From Kiloniellales bacterium (GTDB lineage: Bacteria > Pseudomonadota > Alphaproteobacteria > Kiloniellales > JAKSDN01): a DNA stretch of 7,466 nt. A program made the translations under genes and the position numbers. Position 1 is the first letter of the stretch. Each line of letters opens with the position of its first letter. Shown here in pieces: positions 151 through 6,352 of this stretch. Location: contig JAKSDN010000132.1 of the NCBI GenBank assembly GCA_022360075.1, forward strand, positions 1 to 7,466, written 5' to 3'. The notes under the pieces are model-generated. The model made no database searches. It was not told where the DNA came from and saw only the letters and a program-made list of their open reading frames with translations.

Positions 151-822
151 TCAGCCGAGCAGCTCAGCTTGCTCAAGCCGGCACTCAGGGACTACGTCAT
201 CCAGTGACTTGATCTCGATTGTCGGGGGAAGCCAGTTGGTAACCCGGTGCAGCGCGCCGACGAAGAGCATGCCGGTCTCCCCCGGCTGCAGGGTCGTGCT
301 GATGCGCCGTGCGATAAAGCGGTCCCGCTCCTGGAGCAGTGCTCTCGCTGCGGCGCCGGCTGATGGATGACCGCGGATTTCGTTCCGGCGCTGCTCCGCT
401 TCGGTCTTCAACAAGTGGTATTCCTTCAGCAGCAGCTGGGGGCTCTCGGTCCCCTCGAGCGTGGCGCCGCGGGCCATCAGGAACAAAAGGATCCGATAGT
501 TCATTCCGCCGGTCTCGGCCAGATCGCCAACAATCTCAGCTTCATGCCCGCACACCGGAAGCCCGTCCTGATAGAGCCTCAGCTTGTCGCAGTCCAGGTC
601 GAGCACCTTGATCTTCCGCTCGAGGTCCCGCCAGAAAGCCGCAATCACCCGCCGGCTCTCGCTCCAAGCTTCGCGTCCCTTTTGCGCGATGTACAGGTCC
701 CGTACATCGGCAGACAGGGACCCCAAGTCGGCCAGGCCATGGACAATGGGAATATGGATAAGCCGCCGCGACAAACTGCGCGCGCCGACCAGATCGGGGT
801 TCCTGAGCAATGTCTCAGTCAT
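151..822 (-). CDS. Conserved-looking protein of unknown function at the end of the gvp operon
   Basis: This encodes 223 residues from the ATG at 822. An in-frame ATG at 888 with GGAAGAAG upstream would give 245 residues, but the extra part overlaps gvpK and is low-complexity. I do not recognise the protein with confidence. It has an early LIHIPIVHGLADLG segment (20-33) and a long charged helical middle (LYIAQKGREAWSESRRVIAA onwards). Near the end is RDRFIARRISTTLQPGETGM followed by LFVGALHRV. The GETGxLFxGAxHxV segment recalls the C-terminal motif of some TraB/PrgY-like proteins, but the rest does not clearly match. There is no signal peptide or membrane span. Codon phase looks genuine over the whole length. 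Its place after gvpK suggests co-expression with vesicle genes, possibly for regulation or assembly. Confidence 0.75.
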   Translation of the reverse strand: MTETLLRNPDLVGARSLSRRLIHIPIVHGLADLGSLSADVRDLYIAQKGREAWSESRRVIAAFWRDLERKIKVLDLDCDKLRLYQDGLPVCGHEAEIVGDLAETGGMNYRILLFLMARGATLEGTESPQLLLKEYHLLKTEAEQRRNEIRGHPSAGAAARALLQERDRFIARRISTTLQPGETGMLFVGALHRVTNWLPPTIEIKSLDDVVPECRLEQAELLG

Positions 823-869
823 CGAAGGCCGCCGATACCGAGGCCGCTGGCTGCCGTGCTCACCGTCAT
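819..869 (-). CDS. Possible 16-codon coupling ORF between gvpK and the last gene
   Basis: The ATG at 869 overlaps the gvpK stop as ATGA. It has an excellent ribosome binding site, GGGAGG, ending eight bases upstream. It encodes MTVSTAASGLGIGGLR and ends in TGA at 821-819, which itself overlaps an ATG at 822 that starts the next gene (ATGA again). The chain of two start-stop overlaps suggests either a ribosome relay or a gene whose original start was here and whose first codons have been frameshifted. A peptide this short could also be chance. Confidence 0.3.
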   Translation of the reverse strand: MTVSTAASGLGIGGLR

Positions 870-1279
870 CGGCCTGTCCTCCCGGCATCTTCTTCCGTCA
901 ACACGTCCATCAGCTCCCGCGCCGTTCCCAAGTGAAGAGAGAGGCCGTCCTCCTCAATACCGAACTGCGCTTTCAGTTCGCCCATCCGTTCCTCCAGCCG
1001 CAGTAAAGTCACGCCGAGCCGCTCGACCTCATCCTCCGACAGCGAGCCGCTTTCGACCCGGCGGATCGCCTGCCGCTCCACCAATTGACGGACCGTCTCG
1101 ACCAGAGCGAGGACGAGCCTCACAAGATCGTCCGCTGCCTTTTCAGGACCGGTCTCCAGGCGCCGCGGCGGCGATGCCGACTCGGCCCACCCGAACGGAC
1201 CCTCCGCATGGCTGCCGGTCCCGCCGCCCAGTAGGACCTTTTTCGCCATGTCGCCACCAAGATCCGGCCGCACAGTCAT
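866..1279 (-). CDS. gvpK: GvpK gas vesicle protein
   Basis: This encodes 137 residues from the ATG at 1279, three bases after the gvpL stop. A second ATG at 1249 with GGTGG upstream is also possible and would remove ten residues. The conserved domain covers about 46-120: EKAADDLVRLVLALVETVRQ, then LVERQAIRRVESGSLSEDEV, then ERLGVTLLRLEERMGELKAQ and FGIEEDGLSLHLGTA. The VERxAxRRVExGxL and LGxxLxxLEExMxELKxxFG patterns are diagnostic of GvpK. GvpK is an accessory protein needed for normal vesicle formation in several hosts, probably through contacts with other Gvp proteins. The N-terminal 45 residues are Gly/Pro/Ser-rich and likely flexible. The protein also has about 20 residues after the conserved domain. 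The TGA stop forms ATGA with a short downstream ORF. Confidence 0.93.
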   Translation of the reverse strand: MTVRPDLGGDMAKKVLLGGGTGSHAEGPFGWAESASPPRRLETGPEKAADDLVRLVLALVETVRQLVERQAIRRVESGSLSEDEVERLGVTLLRLEERMGELKAQFGIEEDGLSLHLGTARELMDVLTEEDAGRTGR

Positions 1280-1282
1280 GCC

Positions 1283-1990
1283 TTACGGTCCCATCCCAAC
1301 GTCTGTAACGAAGGAGTACGGCGCCCACGGGCCGGTGCAGCTCACGGAAAGATCGTGGTCGCACGATACCAAGGCCTCCGCCCTGTCGACGAACGCGGGC
1401 ACCGCCTCCCTTGCTATCAGAAAGGACGCCTCGACCGGCAACGTCGGCGCGCCCTCGCGATCCCAGACCGCGTCCGCCGACAAGGCCTCGAGCCGTGCCA
1501 AAACCGACGCGACAGCTGCCCGGCCCCGCTCGCAAAGCTGCGCGGTCCGCCGCCGCTGGGCCATCCGCGACCGCAGGTAAGCCGTGCCCGATGACCGACC
1601 GTCGTCTCCACCACAGGGCGAGTGGGTTTCCGGGATCGTCGCCGGCAGCTTCGAGAACACCCGAACAGCGATCTCCACCTTACCGCTCACGCGCCGCAGC
1701 GCACGGCACAATGTCACCCGGCGTCGCTCCAGGTCGGCGGTAAGCCGGTCGGAGTTCGCGATAGTTCCGAATCGCATCGGCAGTACCGCATGCCGCTTCA
1801 TCAACGCATCAAGAACTCGGTCATGGCACCAGATGTTCTCCATCGTCGCCGCAATGTCCGACTGCGATGCCGCGCTGACGGCAGCAGCGAGATCGCCAAC
1901 CGGGTGCGCTGTCACATGAAATCGGTGGTGACCGCTGGGGATAGCTGCGCGGATCTCGCTGCCATCTATGATCCCGTAGACATGGAGCAT
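1283..1990 (-). CDS. gvpL: GvpL/GvpF family gas vesicle protein (fourth copy)
   Basis: This encodes 235 residues, the shortest of the four gvpF/L genes. The ATG at 1990 is two bases after the TAG of the mini-ORF, with GGGAGAG about ten bases upstream. Family marks are LHVYGII at 2-8, AVLPMRFGTIANSD at 68-81, LPVEASFLI at 184-192, and SCTGPWAPYSFV at 217-228. The central region (about 115-155) is shortened and Arg/Ser-rich. The interdomain helical part may therefore be reduced compared with the first copy. It probably acts with the other GvpF/L proteins on GvpA, GvpJ or GvpS. Its position before gvpK and after gvpS fits the gvpL slot in other bacterial clusters. The first 37 codons are part of the tandem repeat. 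The TAA stop is three bases before the gvpK start. Confidence 0.9.
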   Translation of the reverse strand: MLHVYGIIDGSEIRAAIPSGHHRFHVTAHPVGDLAAAVSAASQSDIAATMENIWCHDRVLDALMKRHAVLPMRFGTIANSDRLTADLERRRVTLCRALRRVSGKVEIAVRVFSKLPATIPETHSPCGGDDGRSSGTAYLRSRMAQRRRTAQLCERGRAAVASVLARLEALSADAVWDREGAPTLPVEASFLIAREAVPAFVDRAEALVSCDHDLSVSCTGPWAPYSFVTDVGMGP

Positions 1991-2055
1991 CCCTATGCCG
2001 GCTCTCCCACACCGGCCAGCACGTGCCCCAGCGCAGCCGCGCGCATGCGCTGCGC
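1880..2055 (-). repeat. Tandem repeat, downstream arm (176 bp, mini-ORF 3' end plus gvpL 5' end)
   Basis: This is the second arm of the repeat, directly adjacent to the first. It runs from the last 20 codons of the mini-ORF, through TAG, two bases and the gvpL ATG, to codon 37 of gvpL. The distance between the two TAG codons (2169 and 1993) and between the two ATG codons (2166 and 1990) is 176 bases in each case. The sequence divergence indicates that the duplication is old. Confidence 0.8.
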
Positions 2056-2166
2056 GGCGGCAGCGAGACCGCCCACCGGGACTGGAACCATATGGGGCCG
2101 GTGGTGACCGGGGGGGATGGTCGTGCGGGTCTCGCTACCAACTATGATTCCGTGTACACAAAGCAT
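1993..2166 (-). CDS. 57-residue chimeric mini-ORF: GvpL-like N-terminus joined to GvpS-like C-terminus
   Basis: This short frame lies between gvpS and the last gvpF/L gene. Residues 1-37 start MLCVHGIIVGSETR and match the first 37 residues of the downstream GvpL (MLHVYGIIDGSEIR) at 24 of 37 positions with no gap. Residues 38-57 start AQRMRAAA and match the last 20 residues of GvpS (VQRMRTAA), ending in TAG at the equivalent place. It is therefore a by-product of a tandem duplication across the gvpS/gvpL junction. The frame has stayed open despite about 28% base divergence. It keeps the two-base TAG-to-ATG spacing on both sides. It may be a remnant that survives because it passes ribosomes from gvpS to gvpL, or it may make a small peptide. 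No complete domain is present. Confidence 0.6.
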   Translation of the reverse strand: MLCVHGIIVGSETRTTIPPGHHRPHMVPVPVGGLAAAAQRMRAAALGHVLAGVGEPA

Positions 2167-2231
2167 CGCTATGTCGGTTCTTCCGCGTGGGCCGACAGAG
2201 GCTCTCGCGCCGCCGTGCGCATTCGCTGCAC
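2056..2231 (-). repeat. Tandem repeat, upstream arm (176 bp, gvpS 3' end plus mini-ORF 5' end)
   Basis: This is the first arm, in transcription order, of two adjacent 176-bp direct repeats. It runs from the last 20 codons of gvpS, through TAG, two bases and ATG, to codon 37 of the mini-ORF. Aligned without gaps to 2055-1880, the 114 bases after the ATG differ at 32 positions. CAGCG occurs in the gvpS codons at the upstream edge and also near codon 39 of gvpL, so microhomology could have seeded the duplication. That mechanism is inference. Confidence 0.8.
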
Positions 2232-2393
2232 GGTCTCGACCGAACCCACGAGGACCTTTAGGCCGACGTAAACGAGATCGACTCCAGCCAACGAAATCGT
2301 TGCTTCCCCACGGATCACGACCCCCTTGTTAAGGGCCCGATCCAGGAGGTCCGAGAGCGCCAGCTCCTGGCGATCCTGAGGCTCAAGCAGCAT
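2169..2393 (-). CDS. gvpS: GvpS, GvpA-related minor gas vesicle protein
   Basis: This encodes 74 residues from the ATG at 2393, which has GGGAGG about eight bases upstream. Alternative starts at 2399 and 2423 are poorly spaced from it. The protein is a GvpA-type shell fold throughout: ALSDLLDRALNKGVVIRGEA, then TISLAGVDLVYVGLKVLVGS and VETVQRM. The AGVDLVY segment resembles the one I recall from Bacillus GvpS and separates it from GvpJ and GvpA. GvpS is a minor, probably tip- or nucleation-associated shell component. The start overlaps the previous gene by 11 bases. Its last 20 codons lie in one arm of a tandem repeat and are copied, in diverged form, at the end of the mini-ORF that follows. 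The TAG stop is two bases before that mini-ORF. Confidence 0.9.
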   Translation of the reverse strand: MLLEPQDRQELALSDLLDRALNKGVVIRGEATISLAGVDLVYVGLKVLVGSVETVQRMRTAAREPLSAHAEEPT

Positions 2394-3216
2394 GCTCATC
2401 GCCTCCCAGTTGGCAGTCGGCAAAGCTATAAGGAGGCCAGGGACCGGTGATCTCGTGATCGAGTCCGAACCCGGCGTAGGCGCTGCGCAGATCCTGGACC
2501 AGCTCGAGGAACGCCTGCTCTAACACCCGGTCGACCAGACAGGCGCCGTTGAAAACCATTGCGCCTTCGCGCGCATGCACCTGGGCCGGCTGAAGCTTGC
2601 CGGATGCGAACTCGCGCACGGTGCTGTTCAGACGCTCGCCCGTATGGTTCAGGCACCGTGCGATCGCCTGTTCGATCTCCTCTTCGACGAGACGCCTGCG
2701 CCGGTGTCGCAGAAAGAACCCGCTACCCTCCTCGGCAGATTCGAGCTGTGCGTCCAGCGCGGCAACCGCTGGGTTGTTATCAGGTAGCCACTGGCCCAAC
2801 TGCTGCCGCACGCAGTAGATCTTCAGCCCCCACTCGATGGCGCCGTGAACTCGCTCCATCGCGTAAAGCAACGCCTTACGATTTCGCGCCAGCGCACCCA
2901 TCACGCCCCGATCGTCCTCGAACATGACGCCGAGGCGGAAGGGCAGGACCGACTGCCTAGCGATCAGCGCCTGCAGAACCTGATGGTGGTGCAGGACCAG
3001 CTTCTCCGCATCGCGTCCGTTCTCCACAAGCGCGGCGAGCGATCGGCCGTCGTTCAGCGTCAGGTCGCTGACGACAGCCAAAAAGCCATCAGATGACAGG
3101 AGTCGGGGCGGTCCAAACGTCGCGCCAGGCAGGACGGCTGCCTCATCGAAGAGTTCCGCGTCGGAACCATCCGGAACGATTCCATAGACATATGCCAAGG
3201 GCGGCGATGGCGGCAT
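2383..3216 (-). CDS. GvpL/GvpF family gas vesicle protein (third copy)
   Basis: This encodes 277 residues. I chose the ATG at 3216 because TAGGAG lies seven bases upstream, and the TAG in it is the stop of the previous gene. An upstream in-frame start at 3234 would overlap that gene by 8 bases and add six residues. Family marks are AYVYGIVPD at 8-16, SVLPFRLGVMFED at 89-101, AMVFNGACLVDR at 219-230 and EITGPWPPYSF at 255-265. An arginine-rich patch, LRHRRRRLVEEE (169-180), sits in the middle, in the helical region linking the two halves. It probably binds shell or accessory proteins like other GvpF/L members. It is clearly diverged from the other copies and I cannot assign it to F or L with confidence. 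Confidence 0.92.
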   Translation of the reverse strand: MPPSPPLAYVYGIVPDGSDAELFDEAAVLPGATFGPPRLLSSDGFLAVVSDLTLNDGRSLAALVENGRDAEKLVLHHHQVLQALIARQSVLPFRLGVMFEDDRGVMGALARNRKALLYAMERVHGAIEWGLKIYCVRQQLGQWLPDNNPAVAALDAQLESAEEGSGFFLRHRRRRLVEEEIEQAIARCLNHTGERLNSTVREFASGKLQPAQVHAREGAMVFNGACLVDRVLEQAFLELVQDLRSAYAGFGLDHEITGPWPPYSFADCQLGGDEHAA

Positions 3217-3226
3217 GACGGCGCTC

Positions 3227-4252
3227 CTACCCACCGCCGGCGGCCGATGCCGCCTCGGTTCGGCTCACCGTGACCACCACGGGGCCGCCCGCATCGACAT
3301 AGGAGGAGAGCGTCGTGAAGGCGTCTTTCAGTTCGGCGATACGTTCGCCGTCACCACCACCGGCCGCTGTGTCCGGATGCGCCTGTTTGGCGAGCCGCCG
3401 ATAGGCCGCCTGCAGTGTCCTTGCATCCTGGACGGCATCGAGCTCCAACAGCCGACGGGCCCATGTGATCTTGCCAGCCTCGAGGAAGGTAATCTCGACT
3501 GTGGCGAAACTGTGCGGCGGCAAAGGTCCGATGCAACGGAACGTCAACTTGCCCTCATAGGAGGCATCGAGCGTTTCGAGGCAATCATCAAGGGCGGCCG
3601 TTCGGTCGTCTTCGATCAGCAGTGCCATGTTCAAGACCATTCGGTCGTCCATCAAGGCGTTGGGCACGGCATCCTGCGAGGTCTGCCGCAAGACCTGCGC
3701 GATGCCGTCAGCAAGTTTGTTCCGCCGCCGAACGAAGAACCACTTGACGAGTGCACCAAGTCGTGACGCCGCAACGAGATAGGCCCCGTAGCCGTCGGTC
3801 GTCAGCTCCTGCTTCAACTGAACGACCTCGGGCTCGGCGGCGATGGACGCGAAGACCGGCTCCGGGTCCCAGGTCACCAAAATCTCGAACTGGGATTTTC
3901 CCTTCATCCGCTCGAACGCATCGGCGAACGCGGCGGTGCCGTTTGCGAGGCTGCGCGAAACGGCTTGGCCGTCGGGCGCCACGGTGCCGAACTTCACCGG
4001 TAGGATCGATGTCCATGCCATGACGCGCTCGATCACCTGCTGATGCCGGAGCAGCAGGAGGGCCAGTTCCTGGCGGTCTCGCAGATCGAACGGCGAAGCG
4101 ACGGCGTCCCTCACGACGGCGGAGAAGCGCTCGCCCTGGATGAAATAGACTTCGTCATCGAGTCGATCCGGAACCTGGCGCCAGTCGGGGTTGGGAATGA
4201 TGGCATAAAGATAACGGGGACCGTCGGCCCCATTGCTCGGCAAGGCCATCAC
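3227..4252 (-). CDS. GvpL/GvpF family protein fused to a C-terminal J domain (second copy)
   Basis: This encodes 341 residues, about 80 longer than its paralogues. The start is GTG at 4252 (GTGA overlap with gvpJ) or the ATG directly after it at 4249. Residues 1-258 form a GvpF/L protein: RYLYAII at 13-19, ILPVKFGTV at 83-91, MVLNMALLIED at 205-215, CIGPLPPHSF at 240-249. Residues about 262-320 read as a J domain: WARRLLEL, a helix II QAAYRRLAKQ at 281-290, the HPD motif at 292-294, and helix III ERIAELKDAFTTL. HPD is the residue set by which DnaJ-type proteins stimulate Hsp70 ATPase. I infer that this protein brings an Hsp70 to GvpA or other shell subunits. The last 20 residues are a Gly/Ala-rich tail. 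The TAG stop lies within the ribosome binding site of the next gene. Confidence 0.92.
   Translation of the reverse strand: MMALPSNGADGPRYLYAIIPNPDWRQVPDRLDDEVYFIQGERFSAVVRDAVASPFDLRDRQELALLLLRHQQVIERVMAWTSILPVKFGTVAPDGQAVSRSLANGTAAFADAFERMKGKSQFEILVTWDPEPVFASIAAEPEVVQLKQELTTDGYGAYLVAASRLGALVKWFFVRRRNKLADGIAQVLRQTSQDAVPNALMDDRMVLNMALLIEDDRTAALDDCLETLDASYEGKLTFRCIGPLPPHSFATVEITFLEAGKITWARRLLELDAVQDARTLQAAYRRLAKQAHPDTAAGGGDGERIAELKDAFTTLSSYVDAGGPVVVTVSRTEAASAAGGG
3293..3469 (-). other. J domain (HPD motif) within the GvpF/L fusion
   Basis: This marks the part of the fusion gene that codes for the J-like module, residues about 262-320. The codons CAT CCG GAC at 3379-3371 give His-Pro-Asp. The helix before HPD carries the expected basic face (YRRLAKQ) and the helix after it ends with a DAFTTL segment like the AYxxL end of classical J domains. 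The first helix, ITWARRLLELD, lacks the usual Tyr of DxYxxLGV, so this is a divergent J domain. There is no glycine/phenylalanine region or zinc-finger region, which makes it type III-like. Confidence 0.8.
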
Positions 4253-4566
4253 CTCGGCTCCTGCTCGACTGATCGAGCAAGCAACGCCTCAAGACGCGCA
4301 ATCCGTTCCTGCAAGGCGGCATGTTGCTCGTCGGATTGCGTTTTTGATGGCGCCAGAAAGGGATCGCTCTGCCACCAGTTCATGCCCATCTCCATCGCCT
4401 TGTCGACCGAAGCGATCAGCAGCCGCAGGCGAATGTTGAGGAGCTCGACACCAACCAGCGAGATGGTTACATCGCCGGCGATCACCACGCCCTTGTCGAG
4501 TACCCGGTCGAGCACATCCGCCAGCCCAACGGACTGGACCGAATGCTCCATCCTCCCGTTGTTCAT
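4249..4566 (-). CDS. gvpJ: GvpJ, GvpA-related minor gas vesicle protein
   Basis: This encodes 105 residues. The GvpA-type shell fold is clear at about 15-60: LADVLDRVLDKGVVIAGDVT, then ISLVGVELLNIRLRLLIASV. It continues with DKAMEMGMNWWQSDPFL, which closely resembles the GMDWWENDPYL segment I recall from Bacillus GvpJ and separates it from GvpA itself. After residue 75 there is a heptad-like helix (AALQERIARLEALLARS), probably a short coiled coil. GvpJ is a minor component thought to help nucleate or shape the bicone tips. The start is well supported by GAGGAGG six bases upstream. It lies 27 bases after the previous stop, one of the few real gaps in the operon. Its stop overlaps the next start. 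Confidence 0.93.
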   Translation of the reverse strand: MNNGRMEHSVQSVGLADVLDRVLDKGVVIAGDVTISLVGVELLNIRLRLLIASVDKAMEMGMNWWQSDPFLAPSKTQSDEQHAALQERIARLEALLARSVEQEPR

Positions 4567-4593
4567 GCTCGCCTCCTCGCCCGAGCAAAGCGC

Positions 4594-4875
4594 TCAGCAA
4601 ACAAGGTCCGCCGCCCGCTGGACCAACGCCGCCGTCTTGTCGCGCAACTCCGAGAATTCCCGACAGATACGGCAGTTCACATTGCCCGCGTCGTAAGCCT
4701 CGCACGCGAGCAGCTTGCCGACGACGCGTCGCAAATCGCCGGCAAGCGGTGCCTTTGCCGCCGCCGTCGGAGCCCGGTTGATCGCCACCGTGATCTTCTC
4801 GACCTCCCGTTCCGTGGGGCCAAACAGGTCGATCGGACAGTCGATGCCGCCCCCGCGCGAAGGCGCCGGGTTCAC
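4594..4875 (-). CDS. Small cysteine-containing protein of unknown function
   Basis: This encodes 93 residues. The start is the GTG at 4875, which overlaps the gvpO stop as GTGA and has GGGAGA about six bases upstream. The same frame is open further upstream to 5028, but that part overlaps gvpO and has no protein-like character. I do not recognise a family. Five cysteines are visible at residues 13, 58, 68, 71 and 93. A NCRICREF segment at 67-74 forms a CxxC pair, with another cysteine ten residues before it. The rest is mostly charged helix with no signal peptide or membrane segment. The CxxC could bind a metal or be redox active. Its location inside the core gvp block, with coupled translation upstream, implies a job in vesicle assembly or its control. 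Confidence 0.75.
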   Translation of the reverse strand: MNPAPSRGGGIDCPIDLFGPTEREVEKITVAINRAPTAAAKAPLAGDLRRVVGKLLACEAYDAGNVNCRICREFSELRDKTAALVQRAADLVC

Positions 4876-5285
4876 GTCGGTTCTCCCACCTGATCGCGGA
4901 AGTAGCGGCGACCACGTCGGTAGTCGACGATGTCGCCCATCCGATTCAGGCCCACGATGTATTCGGCCAGGACGTCGGTTGCCGGCGGGATCCGACCGAG
5001 CTCGACCACCGTGACCGTCAGTTTCCAACCGTCTTCCGTTCGACCGAACTCGGATACGCTGTCGACCGGGTAGCCCGTTAGCTCCTTCAATTGCCGCTTG
5101 GCGCTCTCGATCAGATCGATCGGCCGTCGGGCTGGCATCGCGGACGTCTCGGCCTCCGGGGCAGCGCTCTTCGGCGCTTCGCTTGCCCGATCGGCGCCCC
5201 CATCGGACGTTTTCGCCTTGCCCGCCGCTATAGTAGTCTGCTCCGCCGTTTTAGGCCGCTTGTCAGGCGAACTCGGTTTAGCCAT
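4872..5285 (-). CDS. gvpO: GvpO gas vesicle protein
   Basis: This encodes 137 residues. The first 50 or so are low-complexity, rich in Lys, Ala, Ser and Glu, and likely disordered, as is common in GvpO. The conserved domain covers about 52-135: RRPIDLIESAKRQLKELTG, then VSEFGRTEDGWKLTVTVVEL, then RIPPATDVLAEYIVGL and a DYRRGRRYFRDQ end. The GW-x-VxVxVxE-x-x-RIP-x-x-DVLA-x-Y pattern is diagnostic of the GvpO family. GvpO is required for vesicle formation in haloarchaea and occurs in many bacterial clusters. Proposed roles include regulating vesicle gene expression and assisting assembly, and its biochemical function is unsettled. The start overlaps the gvpG stop by 8 bases. The stop shares GTGA with the next gene. 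Confidence 0.92.
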   Translation of the reverse strand: MAKPSSPDKRPKTAEQTTIAAGKAKTSDGGADRASEAPKSAAPEAETSAMPARRPIDLIESAKRQLKELTGYPVDSVSEFGRTEDGWKLTVTVVELGRIPPATDVLAEYIVGLNRMGDIVDYRRGRRYFRDQVGEPT

Positions 5286-5526
5286 CGCCCTTTGCCCCTC
5301 TGGCCACTTTCAGGCGTTGCAAAAGCGTCTCTTCCTGCGCCTCGAAATCGGCGGGCACGATCTCGCCGAGATCGAGGCGCAACTCCAACTCGGCCAACGC
5401 ACCACGTATCTTGTCTTCGTCGTAAAGCTCTTCCCGGGCCTGGTCGTCGATCAGTCGCGCCAGCCACAACACGCCCTGAATCGGGCCCAGCACAGGTGCG
5501 GCAAGGACACGTCCGAGAATGCTCAT
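5278..5526 (-). CDS. gvpG: GvpG gas vesicle accessory protein
   Basis: This encodes 82 residues. The N-terminus, MSILGRVLAAPVLGPIQGVL, is hydrophobic with the GP pair typical of GvpG. It is followed by WLARLIDDQAREELYDEDKI and a charged helical segment, LAELELRLDLGEI, with an E-rich QEETLLQRL end. This N-terminal hydrophobic stretch and charged second half match bacterial GvpG in order and length. GvpG is an essential accessory protein in several systems, interacts with GvpF/L and probably acts early in shell formation. The ATG overlaps the gvpF/L stop (ATGA). A GAGGGGG ribosome binding site lies four bases upstream, inside the previous gene. The stop overlaps the gvpO start by 8 bases. Confidence 0.92.
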   Translation of the reverse strand: MSILGRVLAAPVLGPIQGVLWLARLIDDQAREELYDEDKIRGALAELELRLDLGEIVPADFEAQEETLLQRLKVARGAKGDG

Positions 5527-6305
5527 GCCACCCCCTCGACGCCCCAGTTGACGGCAATACTGACGAAGTTGTAGGGCGGCACCGGGCCGACATACTTGAA
5601 AATCAATCGTTCGCTGAACGTCTCGCCGAGCGCCTGCACCGCCGCGTCGACGTCAGGCTCCATCGCCGCATCCACGAGGAACGCCGCGTTCAGAACCATG
5701 CGGTCGCTGGTGATCTTGTTGGTGCGCGTCTTGTGGACATGGGGCCGAATGTGGGAGAGGATGGCCTCCACCTCGCGCTCGCGCTTTTCGCTCAGCGCCT
5801 TTTCCACAGCCTCACCGAGCCGAATCCGCGCATAGTAGGTCTCGGCTGGCGAGCGCCCCTCAAGCGCGTCGCGCATCTTGCGGATCGCTTCGTTCTCGCG
5901 CACCACCTCGTCGATGGCGACTCCTTCGTACCAGAAGGCCTTTAGGCCGAGTTCGACGCGATTCTCCATGCCGCCAAGCAGTTGCGTGAATTCGTCGTAA
6001 CGCGGTGCCAGGAGTTTCGTCTCGATGGCCTCCGGGTTCGGCGAGATGGTACCGAAACGCACGGGCAGGAGATCGAACTCCTCCATCACCTCATCGAGCA
6101 CCAGCATGTGCGCCATCATGTTGCGCCGGCTGTTGTCATACTCGATCATGGGAGAGTCGCTGACCACGGCCGCCAGTCTTCTATAGTTTATCGTATGCAC
6201 CAGATCGCCCCGTTCGCCGATACCGCGAACGCGAAACTCGCGCGGCTCGGGACAGGCGATGATCGCGTAGAGGTAGTTGCCCTCGACGATCTCCGGCTGC
6301 TTCAC
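5523..6305 (-). CDS. gvpF: GvpL/GvpF family gas vesicle protein (first copy)
   Basis: This encodes 260 residues. I prefer the GTG at 6305, which forms a GTGA overlap with the displaced gvpH tail. A second GTG at 6314 would add three residues. Family hallmarks are all present: GNYLYAII at 9-16, LLPVRFGTI at 79-87, SDRMVLNAAFLVD at 200-212, and the C-terminal YVGPVPPYNFV at 238-248. GvpF/L proteins are cytoplasmic, two-domain accessory proteins. They bind GvpA and are thought to guide nucleation of the shell and prevent premature aggregation. The length is normal for the family and the gene looks intact. Its stop overlaps the gvpG start (ATGA). It is the best conserved of the four gvpF/L genes here, and its position just before gvpG makes the gvpF label reasonable. 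F versus L naming is not certain in bacteria. Confidence 0.93.
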   Translation of the reverse strand: MKQPEIVEGNYLYAIIACPEPREFRVRGIGERGDLVHTINYRRLAAVVSDSPMIEYDNSRRNMMAHMLVLDEVMEEFDLLPVRFGTISPNPEAIETKLLAPRYDEFTQLLGGMENRVELGLKAFWYEGVAIDEVVRENEAIRKMRDALEGRSPAETYYARIRLGEAVEKALSEKREREVEAILSHIRPHVHKTRTNKITSDRMVLNAAFLVDAAMEPDVDAAVQALGETFSERLIFKYVGPVPPYNFVSIAVNWGVEGVA

Positions 6306-6352
6306 AACGCCCACGTCTTTCGGTCCCGGATTTCAAGCACGCTGTTGCCGGA
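6302..6352 (-). other. gvpH: Displaced 3' tail of gvpH in a different frame
   Basis: Read in a frame different from the annotated gvpH end, this stretch gives GNSVLEIRDRKTWAL followed by TGA. It resembles the conserved last beta-strand of Hsp20/GvpH proteins (NGVLEIRL-like). Its TGA (6304-6302) overlaps a GTG (6305-6303) that begins the downstream gvpF/L frame, forming GTGA. That is the same kind of coupled junction seen elsewhere in this operon. Both facts suggest that this was the original end of gvpH. Removing one base, or adding two, near 6350-6354 would join the frames. Compared with the usual family spacing, about 11 bases may be missing between the LP segment and this strand. Confidence 0.6.

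Follow-up and report, generated by a model that had tools for sequence, protein, structure and literature searches.

How does an open reading frame (ORF) that begins like one gas-vesicle gene and ends like another come to lie between those two genes, and does it do anything there? The question is raised by a 7,466-nucleotide stretch of DNA from a Kiloniellales bacterium (contig JAKSDN010000132.1; hereafter the window, whose numbering is used throughout), in which a chimeric ORF of 57 codons separates a gvpS-like from a gvpL-like gene. An earlier note had traced this mini-ORF to a 176-bp tandem duplication of the gvpS/gvpL junction and had suggested that selection keeps its frame continuous, perhaps for translational coupling between the two genes or for a small functional peptide. 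The duplication and the chimeric ORF are both borne out by repeat search, alignments and the ORF list, and the mini-ORF is probably a relic of recombination, not a gene with a job of its own. The wider point is that no selection is needed for a chimeric in-frame ORF to appear at an operon junction: codon-aligned microhomology can bring it about.

The ORF list and Pfam and NCBIfam profile searches place a gas-vesicle cluster on the minus strand of what appears to be a complete contig of 7466 bp. In their listed order, the genes are a GvpH/Hsp20-like gene, gvpF, gvpG, gvpO and a gvpA-family gene, then a GvpL/F gene with a weak DnaJ match, a second GvpL/F gene and the gvpS-like gene, followed by the mini-ORF, a further GvpL/F gene (here called gvpL), gvpK (866-1279, minus; PF05121, 92.7 bits) and an ORF at 888-151. 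The gvpS-like gene is intact (2169-2393, minus) and encodes 74 amino acids of the GvpA/J/M/S family, with a PF00741 score of 55.3 bits, taken on the longer ORF 2169-2423, and with two relatives of the same length that are 96-99% identical (P0087 and P0088). The gvpL/F-like gene, also intact (1283-1990, minus; 235 aa), scores 148.3 bits against PF06386, its protein is 74% and 78% identical to relatives P0002 and P0003, and the GvpL sequence profile matches two solved chains, 6l5d_A and 4qsg_A. The gvpL product reaches 45.6 bits against an NCBIfam GvpL equivalog cut-off of 200. Judged by these profiles, the names gvpS and gvpL given in the earlier note hold at the level of the families PF00741 and PF06386 only.

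The junction itself consists of two adjoining, gap-free, head-to-tail direct repeats of 176 nt, at 1879-2054 and 2055-2230 (repeat search and alignment), one base from where the earlier note had put them. On the minus strand the two arms have the same make-up: a GvpS-like end of 19 complete codons, a TAG, two further bases, then an ATG with 36 codons and one base after it. Arm 1 (2055-2230), delimited by repeat search, alignments and colinearity with a related locus, carries the true gvpS-like end, TAG-CG-ATG and a detached GvpL-like start; arm 2 (1879-2054), delimited by repeat search and alignments, carries a detached gvpS-like end, TAG-GG-ATG and the true gvpL/F-like start. The arms agree at 126 of 176 positions (71.6%), with 44 of 64 matching before the ATG (31% different) and 82 of 112 from the ATG onwards (27% different, close to the 28% first estimated). 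Alignment and ORF list agree that there is neither an indel nor an internal stop and that the TAG-NN-ATG junction is intact in both arms. Screening for shifted self-similarity within 700 nt of the gvpL start gives, over 100 nt, 74% identity at a shift of 176 in the window and at best 69%, at shifts of 60-66 nt, in 57 related loci; two adjoining head-to-tail copies that none of these loci equals are a tandem duplication above chance.

The mini-ORF (1993-2166, minus) spans the two arms and is open from 2166 to 1993, as had been described. Its first part is the GvpL-like start from arm 1, continued in frame by the GvpS-like end that belongs to arm 2, and comparison of the break sites puts the join at 2054-2055 (minus), where GvpL-like ...GCTGCCGCCG gives way to GvpS-like CGCAGCGCATG... 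The gap from stop to start is +2 nt at both of its junctions. No Pfam family matches it at E<=0.1, neither PF06386 nor PF00741 included, and all that it carries of gvpS is the end, outside the PF00741-matched domain; the last ~15 residues of gvpS vary among relatives. A protein search with the mini-ORF returned two candidates, none at E<=10; the mini-ORF did not even recover itself, an indication that gene callers had missed it.

Related loci were gathered from a species-genome collection by scanning for two short peptide patterns taken from the GvpL alignment; the 57 loci are thus those whose contigs hold one of the two peptides, and many of them are from Streptomyces and only distantly related. 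No comparable duplication is present in any of the 57 (shift screen, 700 nt around the start of the GvpL match). The earlier note had proposed comparing the junction across related gvp clusters, and in the 11 loci where it was read (L001-L010 and L051) there is a single junction and no mini-ORF in every case. The closest two, L001 and L002, are metagenome-assembled genomes (MAGs) of Rhodovibrionaceae with a GvpL identity of 62-63%; their gvpS-gvpL pair shares the gene order and the TAG-CG-ATG junction of the window but, unlike the window, has one junction and no mini-ORF. Nothing closer than these two was found in the pattern scan or in wider genome sets, where matches came from 2 of 61 genomes in the order of G001 (E<=1e-20), 2 of 385 genomes drawn from its class (E<=1e-30) and 1 of 317 in the order of G003 (E<=1e-35). 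A plasmid collection gave one distant match, from Octadecabacter, which covers 12% of the query (window 2220-2462) and overlaps just the first 11 nt of arm 1, and among viral contigs 16 stretches fit the pattern, with no relatives among them.

The comparison with L001 and L002 also indicates how the join could have been made. In BLASTN, window 6169-2055 is colinear with L001 1-4112 (76.5%), and window 2082-891 matches L001 3912-5105 (71.3%), overlapping the first segment; the first colinearity stops exactly at the join, at 2055, the last base of arm 1. The corresponding sites in L001 and L002 read GCCG/TCCAGCG in gvpS and GCCG/TCAGCG in gvpL (the slash marks the break), and the translations show that GCC GTC is codon-aligned in the two genes. 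Their similarity score of 8 is equalled by 0.4% of nearby pairs and by 4% of pairs at the same offset. An unequal, microhomology-assisted recombination, either inside a single cluster or involving two versions of the cluster that had diverged, probably joined a site at about codon 37 of gvpL to one about 20 codons before the end of gvpS, and the product would be the 176-bp S/L junction in tandem. If the two sites then read as they do in L001 and L002, both would have offered GCC GTC in the same codon phase and the fusion would have been in frame, at 57 codons, without selection. The mini-ORF would since have drifted free of GvpL-type constraint, while the flanking intact gvpS end and gvpL start presumably remained functional. 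The recombination and its age are inferred, as is the mini-ORF's lack of a function.

Relaxed constraint is suggested by the pattern of change in the arms, which was polarised with L001 and L002, leaving four sites ambiguous. The detached GvpL part of arm 1 has 5, 5 and 2 changes at codon positions 1, 2 and 3, and the GvpL part in use, in arm 2, has 5, 3 and 8; taken as 10:2 against 8:8, the difference gives a Fisher p of 0.11. In the GvpS parts, neither the detached one in arm 2 (3/5/4) nor the one in use in arm 1 (2/2/1) has an excess at third positions. The residues point the same way. Against 49 GvpL sequences, namely that of the window and P0002-P0049 (the 48 best among 85 further hits, P0050-P0086 lying outside the comparison), 6 of the 37 GvpL-like residues of the mini-ORF are unseen, with His at Tyr5 (Tyr in 49/49) and Val at Asp9 (Asp in 46/49). 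The nine close relatives P0002-P0010 have none or one such residue each, the window's own GvpL has two, and some distant GvpL members reach 5-6. Over its first 37 positions the mini-ORF thus departs from the conserved residues of GvpL, and its GvpL-like half appears, on small counts, to be under relaxed constraint.

That the frame has stayed open is no evidence of selection. In a neutral simulation, in which the inferred 12 + 14 base changes were placed at random and base changes alone were allowed, the mini-ORF frame had no internal stop in 57-60% of runs, and start, stop and frame were all kept in 23-26%. With only the 12 changes of the GvpL half the frame was open in 87% of runs, and with only the 14 of the GvpS half in 66%. 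Long open stretches are moreover not peculiar to the mini-ORF: over 1850-2260 its frame is open for 88 codons, the gvpS frame, non-coding past gvpS, for 97 and the gvpL frame for 95, the final 47 of them belonging to gvpL. With 57-87% of simulations open, a non-coding frame open for 97 codons and a microhomology that gives an in-frame fusion, the proposal that selection maintains frame continuity loses its footing, and the inference of selection from a stop-free frame is ruled out by the simulation. The missing indels do mildly favour that proposal.

Several observations sit less easily with a relic. With 26 changes inferred in two segments under weak constraint, the lack of any indel is mildly unexpected under pure drift, and so is the survival of both TAG-NN-ATG junctions. 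The relic is also 16-17% different from L001 and L002, less than neutrality predicts: third positions of the neighbouring genes differ by 33-44%, so more change would be expected had it been neutral since the split from L001. The third-codon difference of arm 1 to L001 is low (7/37 against 0.38, binomial p 0.011), and the detached parts have changed unequally, at 12 of 112 positions in the GvpL part and 14 of 62 in the GvpS part (Fisher p 0.046). Finally, the microhomology is imperfect in the window's own copies of the break sites (ACCG/TGCAGCG in gvpS, GCCG/TCAGCG in gvpL) and weak in L003, where 7% of pairs score as high.

A relay for ribosomes is an alternative that we regard as unlikely. 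Ribosomes would pass from gvpS to the mini-ORF and on to gvpL, restarting 2 nt further on each time; the frame would again have been born by recombination, and selection would purge stops and frameshifts from it while tolerating amino-acid changes. Changes of amino acid without stops or indels are what this reading predicts and what the mini-ORF has. The geometry fits as well: each of the 11 related loci read offers a candidate start for gvpL within -4 to +6 nt of the gvpS stop (upstream of the matched segment in L004, L005 and L009), and here, without the mini-ORF, the gap from gvpS to gvpL would be 178 nt. For gene pairs of E. coli and Haloferax, PMC10666635 gives, in the part drawn on here, reinitiation reduced by 40-80% at 13-14 nt and nearly or fully gone at 22-38 nt. 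The +2 nt gaps at both junctions of the window and the tight spacing in its relatives resemble the termination-reinitiation of that study, of which the part used here does not describe an interposed relic ORF as a relay. An S-to-L relay would make sense given the tight spacing and the strong GvpL-GvpS interaction that the cited portion of PMC11445434 reports for the Bacillus megaterium operon.

What weighs against a relay is, besides the ease with which chance alone opens the frame in the simulations and the non-coding frame open on the same strand, that gvpL has a predicted Shine-Dalgarno sequence of its own. Its predicted pairing energy is -7.3 kcal/mol, like that of gvpL in L001 (-7.0 kcal/mol) and weaker than that in L002 (-10.7 kcal/mol), and the value for the mini-ORF is -3.5 kcal/mol, all computed with what we take to be the anti-Shine-Dalgarno sequence; the predicted ribosome-binding region of gvpL lies inside arm 2. 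Of the coupling suggested in the earlier note, then, the geometry and the close S-to-L spacing in 11 of 11 relatives hold up, and the mini-ORF may serve as a relay. Were it to do so, a meaningless frame would have been kept open solely because it carries ribosomes over 178 nt that would otherwise break the coupling of gvpL to gvpS, while its amino-acid sequence drifts; in this respect the junction lets one ask, in a natural setting, whether coupling of translation is enough to hold a drifting frame open.

An artefact of assembly, in which the contig of one strain ends inside gvpL and that of a related strain begins inside gvpS, would also place the two arms side by side. The window is apparently a whole contig, the break is exact, the 28% divergence between the arms is close to that between the window and L001, and the best tree sets the mini-ORF apart from the window's GvpL. 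However, sequences of 600 nt taken from each side of the join have no exact word longer than 12 nt in common, which by established practice would be too short to join contigs by k-mers. The GvpL part of arm 1 lacks Tyr5 and Asp9, both expected in a fragment of a functional gvpL, and the join sits on the codon-aligned microhomology of L001 and L002. The short shared word and the lost conserved residues make it unlikely that two functional alleles were simply joined in assembly.

A working peptide of 57 residues, for instance one that competes with GvpL or GvpS or acts as their partner, is very improbable: its start and stop codons are spaced suitably for translation and the two proteins interact strongly in B. 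megaterium (PMC11445434, as far as cited here), but with just 37 of the 235 gvpL codons and a variable gvpS end, no Pfam family, no homologue in the protein search, no equivalent in any of the 11 related loci read, the GvpL-conserved Tyr5 and Asp9 lost and a weak predicted Shine-Dalgarno pairing, the mini-ORF has little standing as a gene in its own right.

If the mini-ORF is a relic of recombination, as we think probable, it may have come either by duplication in situ or by the joining of two diverged clusters. In comparison with L001 and L002 the arms match at 142 and at 130-131 of 176 positions, and with each other at 126. A tree built from the first 37 residues of 26 proteins places the window's GvpL beside P0002 and P0003 (99/91) and the mini-ORF with the L001 type (94/81); forcing the two together costs 6.2 log units (p-AU 0.081; protein, 37 columns). 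DNA clade tests of the arms as sisters give p-AU 0.239 and 0.316, and His25, common to both arms and seen nowhere else in the GvpL comparison, favours sister arms. A mosaic contig was sought in the third-position divergence to L001, which is 0.33-0.43 in the upstream genes and 0.43-0.44 downstream, with no clear step across the join; this too speaks against two sources.

Both routes have partial parallels. Spontaneous duplications with microhomology at their junctions are described from Salmonella cultures in PMC3411829 (as far as drawn on here), and the rearrangement junctions are, as in the window, at short common sequences; the verified Salmonella cases have at least 11 bp of junction microhomology and come from fresh cultures, whereas the arms of the window are 28% diverged and their microhomology is imperfect and known from relatives. 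Homology-facilitated illegitimate recombination, in the portion of PMC6382021 consulted, would account for arms with species-level divergence joined at a few bases, although that process is doubted beyond 23% divergence in B. subtilis and the arms of the window are not significantly rejected as sisters (p-AU 0.08-0.32). In a literature search for tandem duplication with fusion at a gene junction, the one match concerns human rearrangements.

Some further features of the window deserve mention. Over the gvpL start, 1838-1989 (minus) resembles Rfam family RF02691, scoring 20.9 bits where the gathering score is 153; this was the only hit, it was taken as chance, and a structured RNA at the junction was set aside. 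The 245-aa ORF at 151-888 (minus) has a sub-threshold TraB-like match in Pfam; it is present in L003 (67% over 192 codons) and was not found in the stretches of L001 and L002 compared. The ORF at 4594-5028 (minus), between gvpO and the gvpA-family gene, has no Pfam or NCBIfam match at E<=0.1. Four genes of the GvpL/F family (PF06386) lie within this single cluster (1283-6314, minus). One of them, at 3227-4252 (minus), encodes a GvpL/F protein that resembles DnaJ in a C-terminal stretch (PF00226, 25.5 bits, below the cut-off of 27.8), and it can be aligned with its homologues over 337 (L001), 337 (L002) and 319 (L003) of its 341 codons.
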